NCBI GenBank assembly: GCA_945907245.1
Contig: CAMDTB010000027.1
Coordinates: 1-41,134, forward strand
Reading direction: 5' to 3'
Length of the DNA stretch: 41,134 bases
Source of the DNA: Rhizobium sp. Q54
GTDB lineage: Bacteria; Pseudomonadota; Alphaproteobacteria; SMXS01
Within the stretch, counting starts at the first letter, position 1. The number at the start of each line of letters is the position of its first letter. A program made the translations under genes and the position numbers. Shown here piece by piece: positions 54-36,615 of the stretch. The notes beneath the pieces are model-generated. The model saw only the letters and a list, made by a program, of their open reading frames with translations. It ran no database searches and was not told the DNA's origin.

Positions 54-335
54 ATGGTCACGCCCTCCAAATGCAGGACGCCATTGATTCAGACTTTCGT
101 CAGTTTGGGAATCCCTGACGCGAGTCAGCCTCACCGCAGGTTGGTATTATTCAAGGTTCGTCGGGGAGACACGATCCTGGCGCTGACCGACCCGCCGCTG
201 CTGTCCGTTGTGGCAGGCGTGGTGGCCGCCGTGAAACGCGCGCGGCTCGTCAACTGGTGCCAGGATCTGTTCTCAGACTATACCACCGCGGCCAGACTGG
301 GTGCCCCCTGGGCAACCCTGCTGCTTAGTGACTGA
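54..335 (+). pseudogene. Fragment of a family 4 glycosyltransferase (WcaI-like)
   Basis: The frame from about 140 to 300 translates to a stretch (RRGDTILALTDPPLLSVVAG, then RLVNWCQDLF) that closely resembles the interior of WcaI-type GT4 glycosyltransferases, where the segment after the first Rossmann helices reads V.ALTDPPLLS...LVNW.QDLFP. Nothing matching the usual GT4 N-terminus (the nucleotide-sugar glycosyltransferase start with its HE.G.G loop) precedes it, and the C-terminal donor-binding half is missing: the frame stops at 335, inside the 3' end of the opposing membrane-protein gene. It is therefore read as a decayed remnant of a larger exopolysaccharide gene rather than a working 93-residue protein. 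It fits the polysaccharide context of the next gene. The first ~25 residues after the ATG look like chance sequence. The alternative, a short orphan protein, is unlikely. Confidence 0.55.
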
Positions 336-1735
336 GCGCATCCGATGCCTAGAATGAAGGCAAAGGATGCGGCTATTGCCGGGATTTGCATTGGGAAATC
401 AACCAGCGAATGTGCAGCGCATAGGATAGAAACGGCAAATCCCACAGCTGGTATATGCTGGTCTTGGCGTCGCAGAACAGCCCCATTCCAGCAATGAATG
501 ACGGGAATCATAATCGTGGCAAACAGCACCAGGCCACCTACAATTCCAAGCTCGAGCGTATTTTCAAGAAAGCTATTATGTGCGGCATCAACAATGGTGG
601 TTAGATTGCTCTGGTCATACATTCGGTAAACGGATTTGAAGCTTCCAAGCCCATAGCCCAACCAAGGTGATGCTGCTATGGCATCCAAAGAGTTTTCGTA
701 AATCACGATGCGCTGATCGGCACCGAGCTCGTTCTGGTCGACTCGATCGAGGAGCCGAGCGAGACCAGGGCCGAATAGAGCGATGACCGCTAACGCTGTT
801 CCCAGAACAATCACGAATATGAAACTTGCCTTGGGCCTGCTCTGCCTCAAGAGTGCCGCCACCAGGGCGATGAATCCGAAGGCCGCCGCCACGAACCCAC
901 CGCGCGAAATGCTCATGATCAACGCTGCAGCGAGAACAAGGCCGGAAACAACTACATACCAGTATTTCGCAACAACCATCTCCAGGAACCGACGTAGCTT
1001 TTCTTGTCTTGGCGTCTCCAGGCGCCATAGACCGCGGGTCTCGCCGACCAGAAAACCGGCGGCACAGACGAGGCCAATTCCGGCCAGGCTGGAAAGATGG
1101 TTTGGATTTACGAAAGGCATGGCCAGACGACTACCGAACGAGGAGGCCTGTCTCGAACCATGGGCACTGAACCACAAGAAATCATCCCAGCCCATCAGCC
1201 ACGACATCATTCCGATTGCCGCGGTCGCACCGCTGGCGACAGCAATGCCTCCGAGACCAAATTTCGCCAAGCCGCGATCATGACCAGTTTGAAAAGCGAG
1301 CCAGAAGATAGCCGCATAACTGGTCAATCGCAGTAGAATGTGCAACCCCGCTTGAGGATCAACAGCGATCCTGCTGGGGCCGGGCGCCGGCAATGCCTCG
1401 GCGGCGATCATCCATATGGGGTGGTGCCATGCCATCGGAGCAAAGCTGCTGATCTGAAACAGGGCCCAGCTAGCAACGAGCAAGTAACCGACAAGGCTCC
1501 ATTTGAGCCAACGCGGGACATGGACCGTGCGCTTCCCGCGTATAGCGACCTCCGCACCCCAGGCAACCAGCAAGCCACCCGTTATAATGACCATCAGGCT
1601 CCAGGCCCAAGGCTGCACCGATCCGAACGGTAACGGCATCCAACACACAAGGATAAGCAGCGGCGCGAATATCCAGTTCATGCGTTGCAACGACAATTCC
1701 TCTTGCTCATCGCCCGTCTCCCCAGCATACGCCAA
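278..1735 (-). CDS. O-antigen ligase/polymerase family membrane protein (Wzy_C)
   Basis: This is a polytopic inner-membrane protein of the O-antigen ligase/Wzy superfamily, expected to ligate or polymerise undecaprenyl-linked glycans for exopolysaccharide or LPS. The N-terminus has the LPFGSVQPWAW pattern seen in exopolysaccharide-locus members. About ten hydrophobic segments follow. The Wzy_C core is visible around residues 200-400: NPNHLSSLAGIG, MSISRGGFVAA, a periplasmic-loop region around GYGLGSFKSVYRMY, then AHNSFLENTLELGIVGG. Length (485 aa) is normal. The first codon is a TTG at 1735; an ATG at 1681 (MNWIFAPLL) just before the first membrane segment is an equally plausible start. The gene is visibly less GC-rich than most of the window (about 52% in the line I counted), as is common for glycan loci. 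Its 3' end overlaps the glycosyltransferase fragment on the other strand. Confidence 0.85.
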   Translation of the reverse strand: MAYAGETGDEQEELSLQRMNWIFAPLLILVCWMPLPFGSVQPWAWSLMVIITGGLLVAWGAEVAIRGKRTVHVPRWLKWSLVGYLLVASWALFQISSFAPMAWHHPIWMIAAEALPAPGPSRIAVDPQAGLHILLRLTSYAAIFWLAFQTGHDRGLAKFGLGGIAVASGATAAIGMMSWLMGWDDFLWFSAHGSRQASSFGSRLAMPFVNPNHLSSLAGIGLVCAAGFLVGETRGLWRLETPRQEKLRRFLEMVVAKYWYVVVSGLVLAAALIMSISRGGFVAAAFGFIALVAALLRQSRPKASFIFVIVLGTALAVIALFGPGLARLLDRVDQNELGADQRIVIYENSLDAIAASPWLGYGLGSFKSVYRMYDQSNLTTIVDAAHNSFLENTLELGIVGGLVLFATIMIPVIHCWNGAVLRRQDQHIPAVGFAVSILCAAHSLVDFPMQIPAIAASFAFILGIGCAQSLSSRVAQGAPSLAAVV

Positions 1736-30699: not shown

Positions 30700-32040
30700 A
30701 TGGCCCGAAACCCGCGTCTGAACGGCATACCCGGCGAGCCGGGCCTGCCGCTTGTCGGCAAGTCCCTCGACCTGCTGCGCGATCCCGCGGCGGTCAGCGA
30801 CGACATGGTGAGCAAGTACGGACGCGTCTACTGGTCGAACGCGTTCGGCCGCACCAACGTGACCTTGCTGGGTCCCGAAGCCAACGAGTTCGTGCTGATG
30901 GACCGGGAGCGCAACTTCTCCTCGAAGGGCGGCTGGAACCCCATCCTTGGCCGGCTGTTCCCCAACGGCCTGATGCTGCGGGACTTCGACGACCACCGTG
31001 CCCATCGCCGCATCATGCAGGTGGCCTTCAAGCAGCCCGCCATGCAGGCCTATATCGAGAATCTCAACGAAGGCATCCGCCAGGGTCTCGACCGCTGGCG
31101 CGCCAAGGGCGACTTCCGCTTCTACGAGGCGATCAAGCAGCTCACCCTCAACACCGCGGCCTCGGTGTTCCTGGGCATGCCGCTCGGACCCGTGGCCGAC
31201 AAGGTCAACCGGGCGTTCTTCGACAGCGTGCAGGCGTCGGTTTCGGTTATCAGGACGCCGATTCCGGGCACGAAGATGTGGCGCGGCGTACAGGGCCGCA
31301 AGTTCCTCGAGAACTATTTCCGCGAGCAGATCCCGCTCCGGCGCGGCACTCAGGGGACCGACATGTTCACCCTGCTGTGCAACGCCGTGGACGACGAGGG
31401 CAACTCGTACACCGACGCCGACGTCGTCGACCACATGGACTTCCTGATGATGGCGGCGCACGACACGCTGACCAGCTCGATCACCACCCTGATCTATCAC
31501 CTGTGCCGCAATCCCGACTGGCAGGACGCCGCCCGCCGCGAATGCGCCGCGCTGGGCCTGCCCGGCGACAACCTGCCCTATGACCGCCTCGGCGACATCC
31601 AGATCGTCGAGTGGTGCTTCAAGGAGGCGCTGCGGATCAACCCGCCGGTGCCGTCGATCCCGCGGACGGCGGTGCGCGACTGCGAGTTCGGTGGCTACAC
31701 CATCCCCGCCGGCACCGCCATCGCGATCAGCCCCGGCTACACGCACCGCATGCCCGAACTATGGCAGAACCCGGAACGGTTCGAGCCCGACCGCTTCTCT
31801 GAGCAGCGCGCCGAGGACCGCAAGCACAAGTTCGCCTGGGTGCCGTTCGGCGGCGGTGCGCACATGTGCATCGGCCTGCATTTCGCCTATATGCAGACCA
31901 AGGTCTTCATGTACCAATTGCTGCTGAACTACCGCTTTCATCTGGACGAAGGCTACAAGGCCGACTTCCAGATCATGCCGATCCCCAAGCCCAAGGACGG
32001 CCTGCCGATCCACCTCCGACCGCTCAAGGAAGCCGCCTGA
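30700..32040 (+). CDS. Cytochrome P450
   Basis: This 446-residue soluble bacterial P450 has the heme-binding loop FGGGAHMCIG with the thiolate ligand at Cys390; the K-helix ExxR is seen in KEALRINPP; the I-helix reads MMAAHDTLTSS, so the usual A-G-x-D-T has Ala-His before Asp-Thr. It would hydroxylate a hydrophobic substrate using electrons from a ferredoxin not encoded nearby. AGGAG lies seven bases before the ATG. Its stop overlaps the acyl-CoA dehydrogenase start (TGATG), so the two products act together, suggesting oxidation of a lipid, terpenoid or steroid side chain that is then handled as a CoA ester. The family number within P450s is not assigned. Confidence 0.92.
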   Translation: MARNPRLNGIPGEPGLPLVGKSLDLLRDPAAVSDDMVSKYGRVYWSNAFGRTNVTLLGPEANEFVLMDRERNFSSKGGWNPILGRLFPNGLMLRDFDDHRAHRRIMQVAFKQPAMQAYIENLNEGIRQGLDRWRAKGDFRFYEAIKQLTLNTAASVFLGMPLGPVADKVNRAFFDSVQASVSVIRTPIPGTKMWRGVQGRKFLENYFREQIPLRRGTQGTDMFTLLCNAVDDEGNSYTDADVVDHMDFLMMAAHDTLTSSITTLIYHLCRNPDWQDAARRECAALGLPGDNLPYDRLGDIQIVEWCFKEALRINPPVPSIPRTAVRDCEFGGYTIPAGTAIAISPGYTHRMPELWQNPERFEPDRFSEQRAEDRKHKFAWVPFGGGAHMCIGLHFAYMQTKVFMYQLLLNYRFHLDEGYKADFQIMPIPKPKDGLPIHLRPLKEAA

Positions 32041-33269
32041 TGAATTTCGAGGACTCACCCGAAGAGGCCAAATTCCGCGCCGAGGCCCGCGCCTGGCTGG
32101 CGGAGAACGCCGCCGAGTACCGCAAGCCCCTGCCCGAGAACATGACAGAGGCGGAAACGCTGAAGATGGCCAAGTCCTGGCAGGCGAAGAAGGCGGCGGC
32201 GGGCTATGCCGCCATCACCTGGCCGAAGGAAGTCGGCGGCCTGGGCGGCACGCCCATGCAGCGGGTGATCTTCGAGCAAGAGGAGAGCGAGTACAACCTG
32301 CCGCCGGCCGTGTTCTCCATCGGCCTGGGCATGTGCATGCCGACCATGATGGCCTTCGCCACGCCCGAGCAGCAAAAGCGCTTCGTGCCCAAGGCGCTGG
32401 CGGGCGAGGAAATCTGGTGCCAGCTGTTCTCCGAGCCGGCCGGCGGCTCCGACCTGGCGGCGCTCCGCACCAAGGCCGAGCGCGACGGCGACGACTGGAT
32501 CATCAACGGCCAGAAGATCTGGACCTCGGGCGCGCAGTTCTCCGACTGGGGCATCCTGGTTACCCGCACCGATCCCAACGTGGCCAAGCACGAGGGCCTG
32601 ACCTTCTTCTTCCTCAGCATGAAGTCGCCCGGCGTCGAGGTGAAGCCGATCAAGCAGGCATCCGGCGGACGCGGCTTCAACGAGGTCTATTTCACCAATG
32701 TCCGCATCCCCGACAGCCAGCGCCTCGGCGCCGTCGGCGATGGCTGGAAGGTATCGCTGACCACGCTGATGAACGAGCGCCTGTCGATCAGCGAAAACTC
32801 CCAGCGCGGCATCAATTTCGAGACGCTGATGAAGCTGGCGAACGCCGTCGACGGCGGCCGCGGCCCGGCCATCCAGGACAAGGCGGTGCGCGAGCAGCTC
32901 GCCGGCTGGTACGCCAAGTACATGGGCCTGCGCAACGGCCGCTACCGCACCATGACCGCCCTGTCGCAGGGCGCGCGGCCCGGTCCGGAAGCGTCGATCA
33001 ACAAGGCGGTGTTCGCCTCCATGCTGCAGGACATGGCGTCCTTCGGCCTCGACCTGCTGGACACGGCCGGCATCGCCTATGACCCGGAACTGGAAGGCTT
33101 CCGCCGCCAGTTCGCCGAGGCCTATATGGGCTCGCCGGGCCTGCGCATCGCCGGCGGCACGGACGAGATCCTGCGCAACATCATCGCCGAGCGCGTGCTG
33201 GGCCTGCCACCGGATATCCGCGCCGACAAGGGCATCCCGTTCAACAAGGTGCCGACGGGGGCGAACTGA
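32040..33269 (+). CDS. Acyl-CoA dehydrogenase
   Basis: This 409-residue FAD-dependent acyl-CoA dehydrogenase has the N-terminal helical domain to about residue 120, then the beta domain with CQLFSEPAGGSDLAALRT and KIWTSGAQFSDWG, the two flavin-contact signatures, and the C-terminal helical domain with RIAGGTDEILRNIIAERVLGLP. The sequence is close to the long-chain/branched 'FadE-like' group. It is coupled to the P450 gene by a shared base in TGATG, so it is translated from the same message. It would introduce a double bond next to the thioester of the P450 product or a related acyl-CoA. The substrate remains open. Confidence 0.92.
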   Translation: MNFEDSPEEAKFRAEARAWLAENAAEYRKPLPENMTEAETLKMAKSWQAKKAAAGYAAITWPKEVGGLGGTPMQRVIFEQEESEYNLPPAVFSIGLGMCMPTMMAFATPEQQKRFVPKALAGEEIWCQLFSEPAGGSDLAALRTKAERDGDDWIINGQKIWTSGAQFSDWGILVTRTDPNVAKHEGLTFFFLSMKSPGVEVKPIKQASGGRGFNEVYFTNVRIPDSQRLGAVGDGWKVSLTTLMNERLSISENSQRGINFETLMKLANAVDGGRGPAIQDKAVREQLAGWYAKYMGLRNGRYRTMTALSQGARPGPEASINKAVFASMLQDMASFGLDLLDTAGIAYDPELEGFRRQFAEAYMGSPGLRIAGGTDEILRNIIAERVLGLPPDIRADKGIPFNKVPTGAN

Positions 33270-33288
33270 GCGGTTCGCCCTTTAGGCT

Positions 33289-33957
33289 TCAGGGCTTGGC
33301 TGCAGCCTGAAATTCCTGCGACACGAACAGCTTGTCGATGGCTTTGTCGAAGGCGGCAAAAAGGATGGCGTACATGCCGCCGCTGATGTTTTTGGGCTCA
33401 GCATGGCTCGTTTCGACTTCGAGCACGGCCACGATCTTCTGTTCGGCCTTCGAGTAGATCTTCCAGGTAATCTTTAGGGATGCCGAGCCCTTCGTTTTCA
33501 TGCCGCCACTGGGCGCGCAAATGTCCATCTGTATCCGGTCAATCGTTCCGCCGAGCTTGAAGCGGGACTCATCAGATGTTTCGCCGAAGATATCGAGCGG
33601 GTCTTGAGGCAGTGAAAAGCCCGCCTCGCCCATCCGGACGCGCATTCGCTGATCCATCATCTTGGTGAGTTCGTTCCTCTTCTCGGTTTCCGTCCACACC
33701 TGTTCGAAATGGGTCCAGCAGCCCCAGCTAAAAGTCAGCTCGCCCATCTTTTCAAGCCGGTCGAAGCTCACGACGAGCGGAATCAGCTGCATCGCTTTGG
33801 CATCGATCTCGAACGGCAGCCTTGCCCCGCCGGACGATGGCACCGACATCTTTGGTTCCGAGCCCGCGGCATCCGCTGAAGCCTGTGCGGTGACCGGTTC
33901 CGACCAGACTGCCAAGAGCAAGACCAGGGCAGCTGCACGGCAGATAGCGGATTTCAT
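33289..33957 (-). CDS. Exported protein of unknown function, paralog A of three
   Basis: This 222-residue protein has a signal peptide (AAALVLLLAVWSEPVTAQA) and a single ~160-residue domain shared with the two proteins that follow. Common elements are LVVSFDRLEKMG, a first Cys (WGCWTHFEQVW), ELTKMMDQRMR, GFSLP..PLDIFGE, GGTIDRIQMDIC with a second Cys, KGSASLKITWKIYSKAEQKIV and FDKAIDKLFVSQEFQA. Two conserved cysteines in an exported protein suggest a disulfide. No catalytic pattern is seen. The 'GSAS..WKiySK.EkkVV' part reminds me of non-catalytic regions in some exported trypsin-like proteases, but this is a weak recollection. The start may instead be a GTG at 33993 overlapping paralog B's stop. 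GC is low (about 53% in the line I counted). Confidence 0.7.
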   Translation of the reverse strand: MKSAICRAAALVLLLAVWSEPVTAQASADAAGSEPKMSVPSSGGARLPFEIDAKAMQLIPLVVSFDRLEKMGELTFSWGCWTHFEQVWTETEKRNELTKMMDQRMRVRMGEAGFSLPQDPLDIFGETSDESRFKLGGTIDRIQMDICAPSGGMKTKGSASLKITWKIYSKAEQKIVAVLEVETSHAEPKNISGGMYAILFAAFDKAIDKLFVSQEFQAAAKP

Positions 33958-33989
33958 CGCCCCGAAGCCGAATGCTGCGCCGTTGGTGT

Positions 33990-34724
33990 TCACCGCGTCT
34001 CACCGCCTCGCGACACTGCCAAATAGGCCTGGAATTCTGACGAGGCAAATAGCTGATCGATGGCTTTGTCAAAGGCATGCATAAGGATCAGCAGCATTTC
34101 GCCCTGAACACCTTTGGGCTCGTCGACATCGCCCAGCACCTTGAACGCCATGACCACCTTCTTTTCAGCCTTGGAGTAAAGCTTCCAGGTCACCGCGATG
34201 GATGCCGATCCCTTTGAACGGACGTCATTGCCTTCCTGTCCACCCGGAATGCATACGGCGACATTGATCTTGTCGATGGTGGCGCCGAGCATGAAGCGCG
34301 AGAGATCGCTACCCTCACCGAACAGATCGGGGGATGCTTCCGGCAGCGCGAAACCCTTGGCCGTGAGATACTTGCGAAGGCGGTCATCCAGCATCTTCGT
34401 GAGCTCTGCGGTTTTCTCGGTGGGCAACCAAGCCAAGTCACTCCCGGCCGAACAGAACCAGCCCATGGTGATCCTGCCCATCTTCTCTAGGCGCTCGAAG
34501 CTCACAACCATGGGGACGGTCTTCAACGCTGTAGTGTCCAACCGTGGAAGACTGTCCCCCGTCGCCGGCTCAACAATCGCCACACCGGCTTCCGGTTGAG
34601 CAGCCGACGGGCGGCCGTCATGCGCGCTCGATGACTCGGCCGCCGCATTCGCTGAATTAACGATGGCAAGACACGCCGCGAGAGCCAGCAGGATTAGGCG
34701 TTTACGTGCGGATACAGATTGCAT
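33990..34724 (-). CDS. Exported protein of unknown function, paralog B of three
   Basis: This 244-residue protein has a signal peptide (LILLALAACLAIVNSANA) and a linker rich in Ala/Ser/Pro, then the shared domain: MVVSFERLEKMG, Cys in GWFCSAGSDLAW, ELTKMLDDRLRKYL, GFALPEASPDLFGE, GATIDKINVAVC with the second Cys, KGSASIAVTWKLYSKAEKKVV, FDKAIDQLFASSEFQA. It is closer to paralog A than to C. The ATG at 34724 has GGAG six bases upstream; the long open frame further upstream is shadow of the divergent gene. Its stop touches the possible GTG start of paralog A, so A and B form an operon that probably arose by tandem duplication. Function is unknown. Confidence 0.72.
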   Translation of the reverse strand: MQSVSARKRLILLALAACLAIVNSANAAAESSSAHDGRPSAAQPEAGVAIVEPATGDSLPRLDTTALKTVPMVVSFERLEKMGRITMGWFCSAGSDLAWLPTEKTAELTKMLDDRLRKYLTAKGFALPEASPDLFGEGSDLSRFMLGATIDKINVAVCIPGGQEGNDVRSKGSASIAVTWKLYSKAEKKVVMAFKVLGDVDEPKGVQGEMLLILMHAFDKAIDQLFASSEFQAYLAVSRGGETR

Positions 34725-34763
34725 CGAATCTCCGTCAAAAATTCGATATTTCAACTCACTCCA

Positions 34764-34791
34764 ATTATGGTTGATCCACACTGGCAGGCAA
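34764..34791 (-). promoter_or_regulatory. Putative promoter of the paralog B-A operon
   Basis: On the minus strand TTGCCT (complement of 34786-34791), a 16-bp spacer and CATAAT (complement of 34764-34769) give a fair sigma-70 promoter about 40 bp before paralog B's ATG. The region is AT-rich compared with the rest of the window and must also hold the promoter for divergent paralog C, for which no clear hexamers are seen. Confidence 0.45.
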
Positions 34792-34815
34792 TGAATTGTG
34801 GTTTGGGGGTATGCA

Positions 34816-35526
34816 ATGCATGTGAAAATTCTTCGGGCTGCAGCGGTGTCCTTGCTGTGCACGGGCTGGGCTGTGACATCCTGGGCCCAATCCGACGCGC
34901 CACTCGCGAATGAAACGCCTGCCGGGGCCGAGGACTCCAACGCCAACCAGACAGACGCCGCACCGTTGGAAGCACCAGCGCCGCCAGATGCGAACATCAA
35001 TGCCCAGGCTCTATCAGTCTCCCCGCTCGTCGTCGGCTTCAGCCGCGGCGAGCCCATGGGATCATATCAGGGCGGCATCTTCTGCTGGGGAAGCGGGGAT
35101 TACGTTTGGAATTCGACAGAGAACAAGGGCAGGATCACGAAAGTCATGGACGCCCGACTGCGCCAAAGGCTTAAAGATCGCGGCTTCGCGATTCCTGAGG
35201 ATCCCACTGACATATTCGGCGAATTGAAAGACGAATCGAAATTTATCGTCGGCGGGATCATCACCAAGATCCATATGAAGGTCTGCTATCCGAAGATCGG
35301 ATATGGCGACGTCACCCGGTCCGCGGGCACTGCTTCAATGTCCATCACATGGAAAATATTTTCGAAGGATGAGAAAAAGGTCGTGGCGACTATAGACGCC
35401 ACTGCGGAAATCGCCGTGCCCAAGGGTATCACCGGAGAAGAATATAGCATCCTGCTGGGCGCGTTCGACATGGTGCTCGACCAACTCATGGCGACGCCGG
35501 AATTTACAGCAGCTACTACCCATTAG
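34816..35526 (+). CDS. Exported protein of unknown function, paralog C of three
   Basis: This 236-residue protein is divergent from paralogs B and A. Its signal peptide is AAAVSLLCTGWAVTSWAQS, followed by an Asn/Ala/Pro-rich linker and the shared domain: PLVVGFSRGEPMG, Cys in GIFCWGSGDYVW, ITKVMDARLRQRL, GFAIPEDPTDIFGE, GGIITKIHMKVC with the second Cys, GTASMSITWKIFSKDEKKVV, FDMVLDQLMATPEFTA. It is the most diverged member, with RLEKMG changed to RGEPMG. Both Cys and the DIFGE motif are kept. The ATG at 34816 is preferred (GGGGG upstream); a GTG at 34798 would add six residues. Function is unknown. Confidence 0.7.
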   Translation: MHVKILRAAAVSLLCTGWAVTSWAQSDAPLANETPAGAEDSNANQTDAAPLEAPAPPDANINAQALSVSPLVVGFSRGEPMGSYQGGIFCWGSGDYVWNSTENKGRITKVMDARLRQRLKDRGFAIPEDPTDIFGELKDESKFIVGGIITKIHMKVCYPKIGYGDVTRSAGTASMSITWKIFSKDEKKVVATIDATAEIAVPKGITGEEYSILLGAFDMVLDQLMATPEFTAATTH

Positions 35527-35602
35527 ACTCGGTCAACAGGGCGGCAACCCGCTGCGCTTGTCGGTCAACTTGGTCGACACGCCCGCCCCAACCGTTAATA
35601 TG

Positions 35603-35628: not shown

Positions 35629-36615
35629 ATGAAATATACCCGACTGGGTTCTACCGGCATGCGCGTGTCGCGGCTGTGCCTGGGCACCATGAGCTATGGC
35701 GATCCGGCGCAGCGCGCCTGGGTGCTGGACGAGACGGCGGCGCGGCCGTTCTATGAGAAGGCGATCGAGGCCGGCATCAACTTCTTCGATACCGCCGACG
35801 TCTACTGCAACGGCGTCACCGAAGAGATCCTGGGCCGGGCGATCAAGGACCTGGTGCCTGACCGCGAGGACGTGGTGATCGCCACCAAATGCTTCGGCGG
35901 TACCCACAACGGCAAGCTCAACCGCCACGGCCTGTCGCGCAAGAACATCATGGCGTCGTGCGACGCCTCGCTGAAGCGCATGGGGCTGGACTACATCGAC
36001 CTCTACCAGATTCACCGCTTCGACTACAAAACCCCCATGGAAGAGACCATGGAAGCGCTGAGCGACCTCGTCCGCGCCGGCAAGGTGCGCTACCTGGGCG
36101 CCTCGTCCATGTTCGCCTGGCAGTTCGGCGAGTACCTGAGCCTCTCGGAAAAGAACGGCTGGGCGAAGTTCGTCTCCATGCAGAACCACTACAATCTGGT
36201 CTACCGCGAGGAAGAGCGGGAAATGATCCCGCTGTGCGCGGCCAAGGGCGTCGGCCTGATCCCGTGGAGCCCGCTGGCGCGCGGCTTCCTGGCCGGCAAC
36301 CGGCACCGCCAGGGCGGCGGCGAGACCGCGCGCGCCACCTCGGACGACTTCGCCACCCAGCTTTACTATGCCGACGACGACTTCAAGGTAGCCGACCGGA
36401 ACGTGGAAATCGCGGGCCGCCTGGGCGTCAAGCCGATGCAGGTGGCGCTGGCCTGGATCCTGTCCAAACCGGCGGTTTCCGCGCCCATTATAGGTGCCAC
36501 GAAACTGTCGCATCTCGACGATGCAATTGCCGCGCTTGATCTGACCCTTGTAGAATCCGATATAAAGTCATTGGAAGAGCCCTATCGCCCGCATGCGATC
36601 CTGGGCCATTCGTAA
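35629..36615 (+). CDS. Aldo/keto reductase
   Basis: This 328-residue NADP-dependent (beta/alpha)8-barrel oxidoreductase has the catalytic tetrad visible: Asp54 and Tyr59 in FFDTADVYCNG, Lys87 in VIATK, His129 in LYQIHRFD. The C-terminal cofactor-binding segment is seen in PIIGATKLSHLDDAI. It belongs to the YdhF/YajO-like group of general aldehyde and ketone reductases (MKYTRLGSTGMRVSRLCLG start). The ATG follows AGGGGG. It ends 9 nt before hspQ, so the pair is probably one operon, suggesting a stress or detoxification role. The substrate is unassigned. Confidence 0.92.
   Translation: MKYTRLGSTGMRVSRLCLGTMSYGDPAQRAWVLDETAARPFYEKAIEAGINFFDTADVYCNGVTEEILGRAIKDLVPDREDVVIATKCFGGTHNGKLNRHGLSRKNIMASCDASLKRMGLDYIDLYQIHRFDYKTPMEETMEALSDLVRAGKVRYLGASSMFAWQFGEYLSLSEKNGWAKFVSMQNHYNLVYREEEREMIPLCAAKGVGLIPWSPLARGFLAGNRHRQGGGETARATSDDFATQLYYADDDFKVADRNVEIAGRLGVKPMQVALAWILSKPAVSAPIIGATKLSHLDDAIAALDLTLVESDIKSLEEPYRPHAILGHS

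Follow-up and report, generated by a model that had tools for sequence, protein, structure and literature searches.

Three paralogous exported proteins in a low-GC insertion of Rhizobium sp. Q54 share an unnamed domain with HtrA-like lipoproteins

Two tandem genes and one divergent gene in Rhizobium sp. Q54 encode related exported proteins in a patch of low GC, which raises the question of what family these proteins belong to, how the genes came to lie at this site and what their products might do. The window, here the whole stretch of 41,134 nucleotides that was analyzed (contig CAMDTB010000027.1), had been described in an earlier note made from the sequence alone, in which the three proteins, termed A, B and C below, were regarded as an unrecognized family that might form a multi-subunit envelope assembly.

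Organization of genes A, B and C

The three open reading frames are intact and share one domain, as the earlier note had claimed (Table 1). The proteins are mutually 40–50% identical, BLASTP giving 48% identity for A and B (E 4e-62) and 40% for A and C (E 3e-58), and their paralogy is far above chance level. In a tree they form a single clade (support 100/99) on a long stem (length 2.0). Gene A starts either at GTG 33993 (234 aa) or at ATG 33957 (222 aa), and gene C probably at ATG 34816. Since the stop codon of B overlaps the GTG start of A (GTGA), B and A probably constitute one translationally coupled operon. A promoter and terminator scan of the locus was uninformative; the region between B and C holds a single sigma-70-like match (34791–34764, minus strand), which is weak and gives no evidence of function. 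No co-conserved partner gene was found in the window.

Table 1 Coordinates of the features considered at the locus (window positions)
Feature	Position	Strand	Remarks
Acyl-CoA dehydrogenase-like gene, left flank	32034..33269	+	Named from sequence; border conserved in five congeners
Insertion relative to congeners	33272..35573		About 2.3 kb, GC 57.3%
Gene A	33289..33993	-	Exported stand-alone domain protein; signal-peptidase I type A-x-A site (VTA|QA); no lipobox
Gene B	33990..34724	-	Paralogue, 244 aa; LAAC string present, yet no match to the PROSITE-type lipobox pattern
B-C divergent intergenic region	34725..34815		91 bp
Gene C	34816..35526	+	Divergent paralogue, 236 aa; AlphaFold model with a PqiC/CsgG-like alpha/beta fold
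Aldo/keto reductase-like gene, right flank	35629..36615	+	Named from sequence; border conserved in five congeners

The motifs described previously are real, with small corrections to three of the four. The first reads (L/M)VV.F.R.E.MG in A, B and C; the second is D(I/L)FGE and not (D/L)FGE; the third, given before as an S(A/T)S block, is G(S/T)AS..(I/V)TWK(I/L)(Y/F)SK.E.K(I/V)V; and the C-terminal element, formerly (F/M)D, is FD..(I/L)D.L...EF with F in all three window proteins. Both cysteines pointed out in the earlier note are invariant in the window copies and are retained in 28/28 and 27/28 sequences of a family alignment that includes A, B and C, in which a tryptophan is likewise present in 28/28. 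The description of the three as exported also held, each protein having an n-region, an h-region and an A-x-A site, with the signal peptides called from the sequence by eye. A PROSITE-type lipobox was recognized in none of the three by a pattern test. No protease domain was detected in A, B or C with Pfam, and each protein ends straight after the shared domain.

The shared domain in HtrA-like lipoproteins

No family in Pfam or NCBIfam covers A, B or C in HMM searches, in agreement with the earlier failure to assign them. PADLOC and PHROGs gave nothing meaningful for the three proteins, sequence searches of the PDB returned chance-level matches only, tblastn found no relative of C in plasmids and none of A in phages, and viral contigs contained no relative when the three-sequence alignment was the query. 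The domain did not turn up in literature searches, whether these targeted the domain itself or TraT in combination with CsgG and PelC. A genome-contig scan seeded with the three window proteins alone returned nothing, and one seeded with an alignment of relatives returned ten named loci.

The family is nevertheless not the orphan it had been taken for, because the same domain constitutes the N-terminal part of HtrA-like protease lipoproteins across the class. In a class sample of 385 genomes, a profile of A, B and C matched 29 other genomes with E-values down to about 1e-18, some of these matches being weak, while a profile that included the relatives identified the domain, of about 180 residues, in 46 of the 384 other genomes, with exactly one copy in each. 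Six genomes of a phylum-wide sample matched, host included, three of them outside the class. When the window profile was aligned with a profile built from the relatives only, hhalign gave a probability of 99.6% (E 2.5e-24, 169 columns); CsgG, the protease half, the exported paralogues of a congener described below and reversed profiles all gave background scores. Positions shared with the fused proteins in the alignment are C, C, W, GxAS..W and AF..L..F.

The open frame that holds the domain is at least 424 residues long in 44 of the 46 genomes, and nearly all of the long frames that were read out encode a lipoprotein with this domain as its N-terminal half and, C-terminally, a protease of the HtrA/DegP type (Trypsin_2) or a degenerate form of it. 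The architecture thus consists of a signal peptide, usually with a lipobox (PROSITE-type pattern in 33 of 38 long fused relatives), the domain, a linker and a C-terminal trypsin-like domain. The C-terminal half matches PF13365 (Trypsin_2) in Pfam with E-values of 1e-30 to 1e-32, the nearest NCBIfam models are Deg/HtrA proteases, below their cut-offs, and the predicted fold of this half matches DegP/DegQ with Z of about 25. Seven relatives (L018, L023, L028, L029, L096, L099 and L016) have lost the GNSGG serine motif and kept the N-terminal domain, and are pseudoprotease-like. Judged from sequence, this loss in several relatives suggests that the N-terminal domain can also function independently of the protease.

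A representative fused relative is the HtrA-like (Trypsin_2, S1C-type) lipoprotein of Telmatospirillum sp. J64-1 (L038:5878-7227), whose N-terminal domain is homologous to A, B and C (hhalign 99.6%). It has in common with them both cysteines, the tryptophan in the TWK/VxWxV strand and the C-terminal AF..A...L....F helix. The window proteins differ from it, and from their relatives generally, in that they possess neither a protease half nor a recognizable lipobox and are present in three copies; they also occupy a different, variable locus. Two other apparently stand-alone copies (L012 and L025), recognized from reading their neighborhoods, are single and lipoprotein-like. A further candidate, L042, was rejected as a stand-alone copy since the protease half follows in another frame; there, domain and protease lie in two overlapping frames (L042:5788-7153), so that the gene is either split or affected by a sequencing frameshift. 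No nearer stand-alone relative turned up when the orders to which two genomes with fused copies belong were searched, with a 272-aa frame (L109) left out.

Genes hisB and hslVU flank the fused gene of Telmatospirillum and of two further MAGs (L037, L038 and L039), and the stand-alone copy of one additional genome (L104) occupies the same hisB-hslV position, with hisB, hslV and hslU named from sequence. The hisB-hslV gap measures only about 110 bp in the host genome and the congeners, which leaves no space for a gene, so this lineage is without a fused copy at that site and the trio sits elsewhere; nor was a fused copy of the family found anywhere in the host genome or the congeners. This bears on the idea that A, B and C regulate or titrate HtrA-type proteases, by acting as free copies of the proteases' own sensor domain that associate with the protease subunits so as to block or divert their activity. 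The fusion of the same domain to HtrA-like proteases in most relatives speaks for such a role, but with no fused family protease found in the host or its congeners, and the hisB-hslV position empty, the target would need to be an ordinary Deg protease that lacks this domain, and we consider the idea very unlikely. Its narrower version, in which the trio would act as decoys for a fused protease of the cell itself, was rejected since no such protease was found.

The placement of A, B and C exposes a wider, unnamed domain that occurs across the class, is fused to HtrA-like lipoproteins and is described in neither Pfam nor NCBIfam.

Predicted fold and candidate function

An AlphaFold2 model of C, built from 13 sequences, has a mean pLDDT of 77.8 and a pTM of 0.72, with values of about 90 or more in the core blocks. 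Its best structural match is XCC0632, a PqiC homologue (2iqi; Z 11.3, 156 aligned residues, rmsd 5.0), and other PqiC structures match with Z 10.6 (6osx) and Z 10.3 (E. coli PqiC, 8q2d); Foldseek of the model against PqiC gave an E-value of 7e-6. The further leading matches, CsgG, PelC, FlgT, LptE, TolB, HpaA and TraT (Z 8.0 for TraT), belong to one fold group, and the N-terminal half of the fused Telmatospirillum protein, modelled from relatives only, has the same order of strands and helices as C. The domain is thus predicted to adopt the PqiC/CsgG/LptE/PelC/TolB-N fold of periplasmic outer-membrane adaptors. Weak Pfam hints among 18 members scanned, to CsgG (PF03783, E 0.17, in one member only) and to ABC_trans_aux (PF03886, E 0.18), point to the same fold as the model.

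At the level of sequence, membership of the PqiC family was rejected, A, B and C having no Pfam match and the profile comparison being weak: against ten PqiC sequences, hhalign of the whole family gave 20.7%, compared with 0.2% for a reversed control and 0.7% for the window copies alone. As the family value stands well above the reversed control, we regard the domain as PqiC-like in fold without assigning it to PqiC. PqiC (ABC_trans_aux, DUF330) remains the best structural match, with a weak signal in the profile comparison that covers the last strands and the helix. A, B and C differ from it in that the similarity falls far under the Pfam cut-off, no lipid anchor is recognized, extra cysteines are conserved and no MCE partner gene was seen next to them. 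CsgG, PelC, LptE, the N-terminal domain of TolB and FlgT share the alpha/beta periplasmic fold group (Z 8-10), but A, B and C show no sequence-level match to these proteins (hhalign against CsgG, 0.4%) and no neighboring curli, Pel, Lpt or Tol genes. In an overall view, not position by position, neither the domain alignment nor the model of C appears to have room for long extra hairpins of the CsgG type, and no insertion comparable to the transmembrane hairpins of CsgG is apparent in A, B and C.

The reading that we favor, at about even probability, takes A, B and C to be soluble proteins of the periplasm with an adaptor or binding role that were acquired horizontally and probably oligomerize. 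They would be stand-alone, non-lipidated and triplicated copies of a domain that elsewhere precedes an HtrA/DegP-like protease in lipoproteins of the outer-membrane type. According to this proposal, each of the three proteins would enter the periplasm after export and fold with a single disulfide between its two conserved cysteines. They may then self-associate or co-assemble, in analogy to the rings of PqiC and PelC, and the assembly could bind, or serve as an adaptor for, a partner in the envelope; where a protease is fused to it, the domain would place or gate that enzyme. Ring assemblies have been reported for PqiC, XCC0632 and PelC (PMC10897342). The multi-subunit envelope assembly suggested in the earlier note is compatible with the predicted fold, in which some of the best-known proteins assemble into rings, and we infer both the ring and the adaptor role by carrying them over from that fold.

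If the free copies do co-assemble, one could study with them, as a minimal system, what the domain senses or binds ahead of an envelope protease; otherwise, they extend the large PqiC/CsgG/LptE-type fold group to a modest degree. This fold also has roles outside rings, as in the LptE plug, TolB and the HpaA adhesin. A, B and C might accordingly be other, non-assembling soluble periplasmic proteins that bind a ligand or have a structural role (e.g. with lipid, peptidoglycan or metal), the fold being uninformative on function. The functional diversity of the fold and the divergence of the window copies from the fused family, seen in the long stem of the tree, agree with this alternative, and no specific observation speaks against it; we judge it unlikely, though worth keeping in mind.

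A low-GC insertion at a variable junction

The earlier note had placed the genes in a low-GC patch at about 53%. GC is indeed well below that of the flanks, but the value for the insert is 57.3%, compared with 67.4 ± 1.3% in windows of the same size elsewhere, and is the minimum for that size in the whole stretch. The gap amounts to nearly eight standard deviations, a rough figure as the windows overlap. A, B and C have GC3 values of 0.67-0.73, compared with 0.93 and 0.85 for the flanking genes. With both flanks aligned, the flanking genes are only 53-169 bp apart in four congeners, which identifies 33272-35573 as extra DNA, and the low GC is likely to be caused by this insertion. The family was absent from nine other genomes of the host's family and order. 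Based on the empty site in the congeners, the composition and this absence, horizontal acquisition of the insert is probably the simplest reading, the alternative being loss in all congeners.

Recent acquisitions may also have little or no function and be heading for loss. Occurrence in one species only among the family genomes compared, together with low GC3, would fit such a fate, but all three frames are uninterrupted, the proteins are mutually 40-50% identical with only in-frame differences, and the family cysteines and tryptophan are retained, all of which makes decay highly improbable.

A fifth congener carries another insert, with five tandem exported paralogues, at the same junction. 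This insert of about 4.6 kb (G002, L071:1970-6293) encodes proteins of about 280 residues that are 40-54% identical to the first copy and share a VCGW.TD.V motif and conserved cysteines. The three that were scanned have no Pfam match, and no further member of this family was found in the class in a search run without a positive control.

Arrays of this kind raise the question of whether A, B and C are a periplasmic immunity or exclusion array, an orphan immunity cargo that binds an incoming envelope-acting toxin, phage or conjugation factor. They are accessory, probably horizontally acquired and divergent paralogues, the same site in a congener holds five other exported paralogues, and the model of C also matches the surface-exclusion protein TraT in structure. 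Yet TraT is one such match of many, with others scoring higher, no toxin, secretion or conjugation gene was recognized among ten proteins of the window that were scanned, and there is neither a meaningful PADLOC match nor a phage or viral relative; an immunity array is thus distinctly unlikely, and our preference remains with soluble adaptor or binding proteins. It would be bolder still to propose that the junction is a genus hotspot that swaps small arrays of exported paralogues, and that A, B and C represent an unrecognized periplasmic immunity or hetero-ring class derived from the sensor domain of HtrA lipoproteins, which we regard as a long shot.

Finally, a second gene of lower GC (GC3 0.60) is located at the left end of the window (278-1735, minus strand); it belongs to the O-antigen ligase (Wzy_C) family and was possibly also acquired.
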